Part shown: positions 2,889-5,357 of the stretch, in pieces
How the letters are laid out: each line of letters begins with the position of its first letter
Position numbering within the stretch: position 1 is the first letter of the stretch
Origin: Gammaproteobacteria bacterium
GTDB taxonomy: Bacteria > Pseudomonadota > Gammaproteobacteria > Chromatiales > Chromatiaceae
Direction: 5' to 3'
Length of the DNA: 6,043 nucleotides
Assembly: GCA_019136395.1 (NCBI GenBank)
Contig: JAGVUH010000307.1
Location: 1-6,043, forward strand
Notes under the pieces: generated by a model
The model's database searches: none
Told to the model about the DNA's origin: nothing
Seen by the model: the letters and a program-made list of their open reading frames with translations, nothing else
Made by a program: the position numbers and the translations under genes

Positions 2889-3371
2889 TCAGGAATTGGG
2901 CCCTGGCGGGGAGGTCGGCGGCCGGTGCTTGCCCAGCTTGCGTTGCAGGGTGCGGCGGTGCATGCTCAGGCGCTGGTCGGGCACGGGCTCCGCCGTGTTC
3001 GGGACCGGGGCCTCTTCCCGCAGGGCGCGCAGGATATCCGCCACGTCAGCGGGTTTGGCCAGGTAGTGGACGGCGCTGAGCTTCATGGCGCTGACCACGG
3101 TGGGGATGCTGGCGTAGCCGGTGAGAATGAGGATACGGGCCGCGGGGGCCAGGGCCAGAAGGGGCTGGATCAGGTTGAGCCCTGACTGGCCGGCGAGGTT
3201 GAGGTCGAGAACGACGTACGCCGGCGGCTGTCCCCCGCAGCACGCCAGTGCCTCTTCAGGCCCGGCGGCGGCCGTCACCTGGAAGCCCCGGCGCGTCAGC
3301 GACCGCGCCAGCACGGCGCGAAAGGCCTCGTCGTCGTCAATCAGAAGCAAATGTCCGGCCTCAGCGCCCAT
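2889..3371 (-). CDS. regA: RegA/PrrA/RoxR-family response regulator with shortened DNA-binding domain
   Basis: Redox-response regulator, predicted partner of the kinase encoded just upstream. The receiver domain (about 7-118) has the acidic pocket Asp12-Asp13, the phosphorylated Asp56 (YVVLDLNLAG), Thr84 in LTGYAS and Lys106 in YLAKPAD, all close to RegA/PrrA. The C-terminus keeps the recognition helix MHRRTLQRKL (137-146), a hallmark of this family. The segment between VPDQ and RLSMHRR is missing: the family normally has about 25 more residues here, forming the first helices of the Fis-type domain, and the protein is 160 residues against about 180. The join is in frame and shows no shift, so it looks like a deletion. 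The start has a good GAGGT, spaced five bases from the ATG, and lies in the last of four tandem repeat units. It overlaps a small upstream ORF by 11 nt. DNA binding may be weakened; phosphotransfer should be intact. Confidence 0.9.
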   Translation of the reverse strand: MGAEAGHLLLIDDDEAFRAVLARSLTRRGFQVTAAAGPEEALACCGGQPPAYVVLDLNLAGQSGLNLIQPLLALAPAARILILTGYASIPTVVSAMKLSAVHYLAKPADVADILRALREEAPVPNTAEPVPDQRLSMHRRTLQRKLGKHRPPTSPPGPNS

Positions 3372-3414
3372 GGTGGACCTCAGTCAGCAACGGATGCGGG
3401 GCCTCAGCACCCAT
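3361..3414 (-). CDS. 17-codon micro-ORF coupled to the response regulator
   Basis: ATG at 3414, preceded by GAGGT, reads MGAEAPHPLLTEVHHGR and stops at TGA 3361-3363. Its last 11 nt contain the start of the response regulator (3371), so ribosomes finishing here could restart on the regulator. It is a tandem-repeat copy of the regulator's N-terminus rather than a gene with its own history. Translation is unproven; any role would be as a leader. Confidence 0.3.
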   Translation of the reverse strand: MGAEAPHPLLTEVHHGR

Positions 3415-3457
3415 GACCGACCTCGTTTAGAAGCCTATGGCGAGCCTCAGCACCCAT
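3404..3457 (-). CDS. 17-codon micro-ORF, second link in the coupling chain
   Basis: ATG at 3457, preceded by GAGGT, reads MGAEARHRLLNEVGHGC and stops at TGA 3404-3406. It overlaps the next micro-ORF start (3414) by 11 nt, and its own start overlaps the end of the 72-residue ORF by 11 nt. Same origin and same uncertainty as its neighbour. Confidence 0.3.
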   Translation of the reverse strand: MGAEARHRLLNEVGHGC

Positions 3458-3665
3458 GGTCAACCTCGATAAGAAAGGGATACCTGGCTTCGGCGTCATG
3501 GCGGACCTCAATCAGAGGCACTTGCCCAGCCTGTATTCGTTCAGACCCCTTGCGCACTAGGAGGGCTTCGGAAGCGCATGCCACTGGTTCTCTTACTCCC
3601 TCCCCCCTGGTGGGGGAGGGTTGGGGAGAGGGGGTCTGAACGGTTACCCTAGCCTCAGCCGCCAT
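3447..3665 (-). CDS. 72-residue ORF: original regulator start read through the MITE
   Basis: ATG at 3665 follows GAGGT and overlaps the kinase stop by 11 nt (3655-3665), the normal way a coupled downstream gene would begin. It opens MAAEA, then runs through the inserted MITE (TPSPQPSPTRGEGV), and emerges as GQVPLIEV, matching the GHLLLID of the real regulator. MITE plus target duplication adds 123 bp, a multiple of three, so the frame survived the insertion. It later loses the regulator frame in the 43-bp repeats and stops at 3447-3449. I read it as the remnant of the ancestral regulator start. It may still be translated as a leader peptide. Confidence 0.4.
   Translation of the reverse strand: MAAEARVTVQTPSPQPSPTRGEGVREPVACASEALLVRKGSERIQAGQVPLIEVRHDAEARYPFLIEVDHGC
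3525..3655. mobile_element. MITE-like element copy B (3533-3647) with 8-bp target duplication
   Basis: A 115-bp element with 17-bp terminal inverted repeats matching at 15 positions (GTATTCGTTCAGACCCC at 3533-3549 against 3631-3647). The inner 12 bp, CGTTCAGACCCC/GGGGTCTGAACG, match perfectly. Flanks are CCCAGCCT (3525-3532) and CCTAGCCT (3648-3655), a target duplication with one difference. Internal hairpin: 3598-3606 pairs with 3612-3620. Removing the element and one flank rejoins GGCTGAGGCT to GGGCAAG on the minus strand, restoring a repeat unit that matches the regulator start. The insertion lies just after the kinase stop codon. Confidence 0.85.
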
Positions 3666-4971
3666 GGCGAACCTCGTTGTTGTGATTGGGTGGCGCCTCA
3701 TCGTCAGTGACGGATGCCAACAATGGCAGGCGTAGTTCGACGAGGGTCCCCCGACCTTCGACCGACCTACGGTCCACCGCGTTAAAGGTCAGGCTGCCGC
3801 CCCGGCGCTCGATGGCCGCCCGCCCGAGGAGCAGGCCGACGCCCAGGCCCGCGGGTGAGTCCAGGGGCTGACGCCGGGCGAAGGCGTCCAGGGCCGCCGG
3901 TGGCATACCCCGGCCATCGTCCTGAATGCCCACCACCAGCCAGTCCCGCTCGACGTCCGCCCGCACCTGGATGCGGCTGGCCCCGGCCTTGCGGGCATTG
4001 TCGAGCAGATGGGTCAGGGCTTGCTCCAGGGCGACATCAGCCGGCAGGAGCTGGTCGTTCAGGTTCTGACCCAGATCCCAGGCCACCGCCAGGGCGGGAT
4101 GGCGGCTCTGCCAGACCTCAAGCAGGCGCCGCAGCCAGTCAACCGCCGGCTGGGTCGGCGCCTGACCGGCCAGGGCCTGAGCCGCCCGGGCCGTCAGTTG
4201 GCTCAGGGTCTCCTTGCAACGCCGGATCTCGGTCTTCATCGCCTGGACGTCGGCGGTCAGTGCCGGGGGCAGGCGAGCGTCGTCCAGCAGGTCATCGGCC
4301 AGGACGTTGAGGCTGGCCAGGGGGCTGCCCAGTTCATGGGCCGCCCCGGCGGCCTGGCTGCCGAGGGTGATCAGCCAATCATCGCGGATCGCCTGCTCGC
4401 GGGCCGCGGTCAACTCCCGGTCGCGGCGGCGGATACCGCTGGAGAGTTGCAGGATGAACCCGACCACCAGCACCGCCGACAGGGCGAAGACCAGCCACAT
4501 GCCGAACAGGTGCAGGGTCCCGGCCCTGGCAAAGTCGGCGATGTGCAGGGGGACGTAAAAGTACCAGAGAAAGGAGTAGATCAGGATGGCGCCCAGGGCC
4601 AGCAGCCAGGCCTGACGGGGCGTCAGGATCAGGGCGCCGATGGCCACCAGGGGCAGGAAGAGGGAGATCAACGGGTTGGTCGCCCCCCCGGAGAGGAAGA
4701 TGTAGCCCCCCCAGGCGAGGAGGTCGAAGCTCAACTGGACGCAGGGGGAAAAGAAGCGCGGGGCCTCGGCGACACCCAGCGTGCTGTCCGCCAGATGGAA
4801 GCCCAGATTGACCAGGCCGATGAGCGCCGCGTAAATGAGCAGCCGGACCATGAGCCCGGAGGGCCCCAGCAGCAGGGGGCTCACCATGGCCGCCAGCACC
4901 ATGGCGATCACCGACAGCCAACGCAACTGCAGCAGCGAGGCCTGGATGACGCGGGTCAAGGAGTCGATCAT
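3655..4971 (-). CDS. regB: RegB/PrrB/RoxS-family redox sensor histidine kinase
   Basis: Inner-membrane kinase that senses redox or quinone state and phosphorylates a RegA-type regulator. The first ~175 residues form about six membrane segments. Between them GGATNPLISLFLP (95-107) corresponds to the GGxxNPF quinone-binding motif of RegB. The H-box AAGAAHELGSPL places the phosphorylated residue at His212. EIRRCKETL holds Cys252 where RegB has its redox-active cysteine. The ATP-binding domain has the N-box (HLLDNARKAG, Asn325), DDGRGMP (351-357) and GLGVGL (375-380). At 438 residues it is near the family's usual length and appears intact. ATG 4971 gives the full N-terminus, but I see no clear Shine-Dalgarno. 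Its stop overlaps the first ATG of the downstream coupling chain by 11 nt, so kinase and regulator were probably once translationally coupled directly. Confidence 0.93.
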   Translation of the reverse strand: MIDSLTRVIQASLLQLRWLSVIAMVLAAMVSPLLLGPSGLMVRLLIYAALIGLVNLGFHLADSTLGVAEAPRFFSPCVQLSFDLLAWGGYIFLSGGATNPLISLFLPLVAIGALILTPRQAWLLALGAILIYSFLWYFYVPLHIADFARAGTLHLFGMWLVFALSAVLVVGFILQLSSGIRRRDRELTAAREQAIRDDWLITLGSQAAGAAHELGSPLASLNVLADDLLDDARLPPALTADVQAMKTEIRRCKETLSQLTARAAQALAGQAPTQPAVDWLRRLLEVWQSRHPALAVAWDLGQNLNDQLLPADVALEQALTHLLDNARKAGASRIQVRADVERDWLVVGIQDDGRGMPPAALDAFARRQPLDSPAGLGVGLLLGRAAIERRGGSLTFNAVDRRSVEGRGTLVELRLPLLASVTDDEAPPNHNNEVRHGG

Positions 4972-5236: not shown

Positions 5237-5357
5237 GTAAGCCTTCGTACCCCCTCCCGCCTGGCTGGCATCGGTAGCACAAGCCGCTGATTGTCTTGCT
5301 CCCTCCACCCTGGCGGGGGAGGGGTGGGGAGAGGGGGGGGTACGGATACCACTGAAC
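5229..5357. mobile_element. Diverged MITE-like element copy C (5237-5349)
   Basis: A 113-bp stretch with the same GTA...TAC ends as copies A and B. It shares a recognisable core: CTCCCTCC, a CTGG loop, GGGGGAGGG and GGGGAGAGGGGG (about 5299-5340). The inverted ends near the tips are CGTACCCCC (5246-5254) and GGGGGTACG (5336-5344). They differ in sequence from the TTCAGACCCC/GGGGTCTGAA of copy B but still pair. Flanks CACTAACC (5229-5236) and CACTGAAC (5350-5357) agree at six of eight positions, as expected of an old target duplication. It lies in the exbB leader and would form a strong hairpin (5301-5309 with 5315-5323, one mismatch). Confidence 0.65.

Follow-up and report, generated by a model that had tools for sequence, protein, structure and literature searches.

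Tandem repeats lying between the genes of a sensor kinase and a response regulator are known from the Mycobacterium tuberculosis complex, where the senX3-regX3 locus carries MIRU units of variable make-up, consisting either of three 77-bp units or of two 77-bp units and one of 53 bp (as stated in an excerpt of PMC4213456), and BCG strains contain two or three 77-bp units (from an excerpt of PMC9392950). MIRUs have been reviewed as interspersed and apparently mobile repeats with a stop/start spacing of -4 nt, the ORFs of which are coupled to the next gene, and this coupling likely allows insertion of the repeat with hardly any effect on expression. In addition, promoter activity driving regX3 without senX3 has been reported for the senX3-regX3 intergenic region (same excerpt of PMC4213456). 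As for overlapping genes at large, surveys name -4, -1, and -8 as the commonest overlaps (excerpt of PMC10666635), and a review states that coupling in E. coli is mostly best at spacings from -4 to +3 and weakens as overlaps grow, with exceptions; in chloroplast extract, a -10 spacing was reviewed as working about twofold better than +2. An earlier note on the locus described here had assumed that a relay of coupled short ORFs was without described example, which does not stand in view of the tandem, copy-variable MIRUs of senX3-regX3 and their review as coupled ORFs. A literature search for tandem-duplicated overlapping junctions or coupling minisatellites, revealed no such case among the titles and openings of abstracts that were listed.

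The window, i.e., the whole stretch of 6,043 nt that was analyzed, contains a kinase and a regulator gene on its minus strand, which are connected by the following features:

3655..4971, minus strand: RegB-like sensor histidine kinase, with Pfam domain HATPase_c and with HisKA under its cut-off
3655..3665, minus strand: junction 0, where the kinase stop and the 72-codon ORF start overlap by 11 nt, GAGGT at 3671-3675
3447..3665, minus strand: 72-codon ORF, consisting of the head of unit 0, the dispersed element, and unit 1 read through
about 3533..3648, minus strand: dispersed repeat (MITE/REP-like), inserted in unit 0, open in the phase used
3489..3509, minus strand: junction 1, decayed copy, GAGGTccgccATGACGCCGAA, with GAGGT and ATG preserved but one base and the stop lost
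3447..3457, minus strand: junction 2, 11-nt overlap, GAGGT at 3463-3467
3404..3457, minus strand: 17-codon micro-ORF A, from frame analysis
3404..3414, minus strand: junction 3, 11-nt overlap, GAGGT at 3420-3424
3361..3414, minus strand: 17-codon micro-ORF B, from frame analysis
3361..3371, minus strand: junction 4, 11-nt overlap of micro-ORF B and the regulator start, GAGGT at 3377-3381
2889..3371, minus strand: RegA-like response regulator, receiver intact, Fis-type HTH mostly missing

Read along the minus strand, the kinase gene thus leads via three ORFs, of 72, 17, and 17 codons, to the gene of the 160-aa regulator, a chain which the earlier note had described and which frame analysis bears out. 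The four 11-nt overlaps it had listed are all present, and the pattern GAGGTNNNNCATGGNNGCTGAGGCY matches the window at exactly these four sites, with no match in 200 shuffles; the GAGGT claimed to precede each of them is also found, beginning ten bases 5' of the ATG. The description of the overlaps as identical holds for their form, ATGGxxGCTGA, but not for their letters, the second codon being GCG, GGT, GGT, and GGC, respectively. A 43-nt direct repeat holds three of the junction copies, with 70-72% identity to the reference copy, and the fourth copy lies 208 nt off from this array, with a core of 26 nt in common. Each 43-nt unit combines GAGGT plus five bases, from the tail of the kinase gene, with the overlap and the opening codons of the regulator gene. 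Tandem Repeats Finder, run with a minimum score of 30, did not list the junction array. The 72-codon ORF gave no match in Pfam or NCBIfam, and the protein database held for its 72-aa product a single identical record, sourceless and marked like the window's own protein. A start of the regulator at an in-frame codon further upstream was considered and ruled out, since every such frame meets a stop by the following junction at the latest. The window presents the stop/start overlap with a Shine-Dalgarno sequence that marks termination-reinitiation pairs, and also, like MIRUs, tandem units in which a small ORF terminates at a stop overlapping the start that follows, the coupling itself being presumed; the spacing of the four overlaps is -11 nt and not the -4 nt of MIRUs.

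Three features of the locus were absent from the earlier note, namely the decayed fifth copy, the dispersed element at about 3533-3648, and an 84-nt loss in the regulator gene. The fifth copy at 3489-3509 is added by a looser pattern allowing two mismatches, for which the shuffles give an expectation of 0.13 matches. Its ATG at 3499 opens a 31-codon ORF running from 3499 to 3404, in frame into the ORF that starts at 3457. The dispersed element of about 115 nt makes up about half of the 72-codon ORF; the distance between junctions 0 and 1 is 166 nt versus 43 nt, the added 123 nt being a multiple of three, and the chain uses the one forward frame, out of three, in which the element is open throughout. 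Scored matches to the element numbered 27 in genome G001 and at least 40, 41, and 45 in G002, G003, and G006, respectively (40 candidates scored in these last three), with no scored match in G004 and G005, such that four of the six genomes examined carry the element, its copies being as numerous as expected of a MITE/REP-like sequence. A second copy in the window, at 2749-2855, lies just 3' of the regulator gene, as does a copy at 4592-4707 of the related locus L002, and the two go back perhaps to one common insertion. A 44-nt partial match to the element was also seen at 5294-5337 of the window, near the start of an exbB-like ORF.

Compared with the RegB/RegA (PrrBA, ActSR) redox system, the kinase is closest to the ActS/PrrB/RegB family of NCBIfam (NF033792; E 5e-50, 170.6 bits, below the cut-off of 350), and the best family of the regulator is RegA/PrrA/ActR (NF033791), with 124.3 bits versus a cut-off of 250, to which the L002 regulator scores 161.3 bits. 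Relative to the related loci L001 to L003, the window regulator shows an in-frame loss of 84 nt at about 2965/2966 on the minus strand. Its HTH_8 match covers only positions 27-41 with 12 bits (cut-off 22), whereas the regulators of L001 and L002 and regulator P0001 reach 48-50 bits; these three show the architecture of a receiver plus a Fis-type HTH, which is incomplete in the window. Short similar stretches were observed at both ends of the loss. Among receiver codons 6-120, the window differs at sites where L001, L002, and L003 agree by 11 synonymous and two non-synonymous changes; the receiver is still evolving as a protein, and the loss in the HTH is therefore recent, tolerated, or an assembly error. 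Because the regulator is devoid of most of its DNA-binding domain, the chain in the window may control little. On the plus strand, the ORF of a TonB-dependent receptor (440-2668) contains a 16-nt tandem duplication of 2.3 copies at 2602-2668 and has an untypical tail, with a frame ending in FYVGLNVKF alongside; as judged from these sequences, the gene looks frameshifted near its 3' end.

The distribution of the repeated junction was followed in a locus scan with one genome per species, which yielded 55 loci, and in a regulator search of 210 genomes of the family of G002, 27 of which had a match at E 1e-40 or better. In the nine closest genomes (G001-G006, G148, G152, and G155), a repeated junction occurs in three, represented by three 43-nt units in L001, one 43-nt unit in L002, and one 127-nt unit in L003, which is chained at both ends. 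The number of units thus varies among relatives, a point which the earlier note had proposed to check by comparison. All seven of the next loci (L004-L010) contain a single 11-nt overlap. In L001, the geometry is preserved in part: junction 1 is devoid of GAGGT and stop, and the first micro-ORF, of 27 aa, passes this junction and ends 2 nt short of the junction 2 ATG. Together with the 43-nt repeat and the chained frames, the single overlap of L004-L010 supports the view of the earlier note that tandem copying turned one hand-over into four. In an automatic count over 56 loci, the overlap measured 4 nt at 18, 11 nt at 13, and 8 nt at nine of them, whilst other lengths were counted at 16, a class including the three repeated loci and some misplaced starts; the automatic start placement looks wrong at some loci, e.g., L011, L069, L086, and L088, and L007 and L068 apparently belong to one genome. 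Position 4 is occupied by Glu, a residue that an 11-nt overlap would favor, in 70 of the 120 regulator homologs listed and in 33 of the top 40. From the single overlap of L004-L010 and this Glu-4 frequency, the 11-nt overlap therefore appears to be inherited, and its repetition to be a later feature of a small clade.

When matched by eye, the window and L001 have unit 1 (AGGTATCC) and unit 2 (GAGGTTGACC) in common, and the unit of L002 looks like a fusion of the unit 0 head with the unit 2 tail, a form which the loss of two units would leave. The end points of the 127-nt unit of L003 differ from those of the 43-nt units, and its duplication is probably independent. The micro-ORF of the L003 type was retrieved in its 45-aa form from 22 contigs of public data, a set biased by the reporting of open frames only by gene callers. 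Three variants in the database, of 45, 47, and 49 aa, are distinguished by Val-Glu pairs and by a small number of residues, and the differing number of these pairs in proteins P0121-P0123 points to a 6-nt repeat within the unit of 127 nt.

A narrow pattern of the cassette with up to one mismatch, which misses the copies of G003, had any match in seven of the 210 genomes and two matches in G001 alone, both at the kinase/regulator locus. A looser pattern with up to one mismatch found, in nine genomes, copies at the locus in G001, G002, and G003 and one elsewhere in G148. With two mismatches, it gave three to 12 matches in each of the nine genomes, most of them away from the locus, versus zero to four for the reversed control, and exceeded this control in seven of the nine, a result that counts against the locus-born origin proposed below. 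The idea of the cassette being a dispersed element was rejected because the narrow pattern is repeated at this locus only in the 210 genomes, and the same search gave no sign of interspersion at many genomic loci, as is typical of MIRUs. A search of viral contigs with the kinase as query gave 11 pattern matches and no relative.

The periods of the repeats follow a rule of frames. In an 11-nt overlap, the codon boundary of the upstream frame sits one base 5' of the ATG, and a copied ATG stays in the frame of the chain only if the duplicated length equals 1 mod 3, as is the case for both 43 and 127. For a 4-nt ATGA overlap, the duplicated length has to equal 2 mod 3, and an example of this kind was found at locus L099 of G003 (reverse strand, 1650-1730), where a 4-nt ATGA junction is repeated with a period of 77 nt, which is 2 mod 3. 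A 26-codon micro-ORF ends there in the ATGA that opens a 193-aa ORF, whose product is coiled-coil-like and had no Pfam match above the cut-off; the open frame upstream, of 94 codons, passes through a copy of the dispersed element just 5' of the repeat, and it was because of this element that L099 was in the sample. A scan for tandem-copied junctions covered 1.14 Mb (both strands counted) and 2096 candidate junctions. It excluded L056-L067 as duplicates but still included L089, L091, and some further loci that duplicate others. Its best rows were L003/L091 with 30 of 32, L099 with 27, and the window with 25; L103, L036, and L039 (22-23 of 32) were dropped, looking like chance or low-complexity matches. 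All three cases found here and the one from print are in phase, which is suggestive of the rule, the cases being few and found post hoc. The recurrence at an unrelated gene in L099 favors a general tolerance of in-phase duplications.

Whether the chain is merely tolerated or is under selection was approached with the four arrays for which DNA of the locus was at hand (the window, L001, L002, and L003), the window and L001 being of common ancestry. Both the definition of a chain and the choice of functional columns were made with the data already seen, and the window was picked for its intact chain. Between the two orthologous internal units of the window and L001, two of 16 differences fall into Shine-Dalgarno, ATG, or TGA columns, with 4.1 expected (P 0.18). 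Over five internal units, this applies to three of 35 distinct departures, with 9.0 expected (P 0.011, or 0.06 when the ATG columns are omitted). The block from GAGGT to GCTGAGGC holds 14 departures versus 21 in the linker (P 0.044), and departing cells, which are not independent of each other, amount to four of 55 in functional and 50 of 159 in other columns (Fisher P 2.4e-4). In a neutral simulation at 10-30% divergence, chain and Shine-Dalgarno sequences were kept in 0.4-8.6% of L001-like, 2.1-5.8% of window-like, and 13-53% of L002-like arrays; when only the chain was demanded, the respective values were 6-24, 9-17, and 36-73%. The L003 micro-ORF survives in 27-72% of simulated runs at 5-20% divergence, and all four real arrays pass the chain test of the simulation, including the Shine-Dalgarno sequences. 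At four-fold sites, the window and L001 differ by 0.22 in the regulator and 0.08 in the kinase gene, and the divergence of the array is near the regulator value. These data weakly suggest that the unbroken chain is kept, as would be predicted by tolerance with purifying selection and by tuning alike. The better-kept columns and the low simulated survival lean towards selection for an unbroken chain and count against the explanation preferred below, purifying selection on coupling accounting for them as well as tuning does.

The array is best explained, in our opinion and with moderate confidence, as a minisatellite born at the locus, which was most likely tolerated since it preserved coupling, any lower output of regulator being a by-product. 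The ancestor would have had one 11-nt overlap of kinase stop and regulator start with its own Shine-Dalgarno sequence, allowing ordinary termination-reinitiation coupling. A 43-nt tandem duplication would have copied the last bases of the kinase gene, the overlap, and the first eleven regulator codons, and because 43 equals 1 mod 3, the frame of the copied start would close at the stop of the next overlap, such that a 17-codon cistron and an additional hand-over come with every copy. The array would later have gained and lost units, and in the window one unit would have decayed and the dispersed element entered another, leaving the chain unbroken. Because the regulator would be kept coupled to the kinase, the repeat is most likely tolerated, just as the insertion of MIRUs is believed to be of little consequence. 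This order of events, the translation of the micro-ORFs, the coupling, and the near-neutrality of the array are what we infer. A tuning of the regulator:kinase ratio by the array is possible. It would be the purpose of a selected translational relay, in which each termination-reinitiation step passes on part of the ribosomes, the unit number sets the ratio, and unequal recombination adjusts it. The different unit numbers among relatives, the better-kept functional columns, and the unbroken chains of all four arrays are in line with such a relay, as is the lower coupling by overlaps larger than -4 in E. coli constructs. However, the ortholog pairs alone show no significant sparing, the window regulator is devoid of most of its HTH, and one L001 unit without GAGGT and stop is simply passed by the chain. 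Moreover, each start in the window has its own GAGGT, so the steps need not be lossy, and -11 overlaps need not be poor couplers in view of the chloroplast result at -10; the hand-overs may or may not be leaky. We consider the relay unlikely.

The regulator might also start independently from its own GAGGT, the upstream copies being untranslated or irrelevant debris. Junction 4 offers a GAGGT duplex energy of -6.3 kcal/mol and the least paired Shine-Dalgarno sequence of the five window copies (0.77 unpaired), and the array, with its 16 differences in two units, diverges about as much as the four-fold sites of the regulator and more than those of the kinase. Yet ribosomes reach junction 0, into which the kinase frame leads directly, and the chains are unbroken in four arrays, which makes this explanation rather improbable to us. 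The repeated motif with its CCATGG or TCATGG core, together with the promoter activity reported for the MIRU-bearing senX3-regX3 region (excerpt of PMC4213456), would also be expected if the copies were a promoter or binding sites for a protein or RNA and the ORFs incidental. This appears very unlikely, given that no sigma-70 promoter-like or terminator-like site was found in 3330-3720, that the window has no Rfam match at gathering scores, and that the best-kept columns include those for translation. We give least credit of all, and hardly any, to the micro-peptides being functional products: their frames are kept open, and ORFs of the L003 type occur in several protein sources, although gene callers report open frames only, but the peptides are plain fusions of the regulator N-terminus and the kinase C-terminus, and unit 2 differs between L001 and the window by amino-acid changes.

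Seen as a tolerated minisatellite, the window array is a locus-born variant of coupled repeat ORFs between a kinase and a regulator gene, for which a precedent is known in mycobacteria. Both the senX3-regX3 MIRUs and the array are tandem repeats between a sensor kinase and a response regulator gene, and two unrelated operons of this type would thus carry tandem repeats handing ribosomes on via micro-cistrons. MIRUs are interspersed and apparently mobile, whereas the unit described here derives from its two flanking genes and was found repeated only at this locus in the 210 genomes searched; they also differ in spacing (-4 versus -11) and in the additional promoter activity of the senX3-regX3 region. 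The leader of a bicistronic design, an engineered short leader cistron, delivers ribosomes to the next start in a similar way, but the short ORFs observed here are natural and arranged in series. Overlapping pairs using termination-reinitiation likewise feature a stop/start overlap and a Shine-Dalgarno sequence inside the upstream gene (excerpts of Huber et al., 2019, 2023), but their common overlaps are -4, -1, and -8 (excerpt of PMC10666635), whereas that of the window is -11 and repeated. A broader claim, that the operon's own junction gave rise to a selected, copy-adjustable relay, which obeys the same frame rule as the mycobacterial MIRU array but evolved independently of it, and that overlapping genes can generally grow chains of micro-cistrons, is tentative and seems improbable at present. 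The repeat also illustrates a route by which short ORFs can become chained with no selection acting on a peptide. The frame rule, 1 mod 3 for -11 and 2 mod 3 for -4 overlaps, tells which junction duplications leave coupling whole, and L099 fits it. By arithmetic on the published unit sizes, the MIRUs of 77 and 53 bp would follow the same rule, both being 2 mod 3 at a spacing of -4, just as the units of 43 and 127 nt described here are 1 mod 3 at -11.
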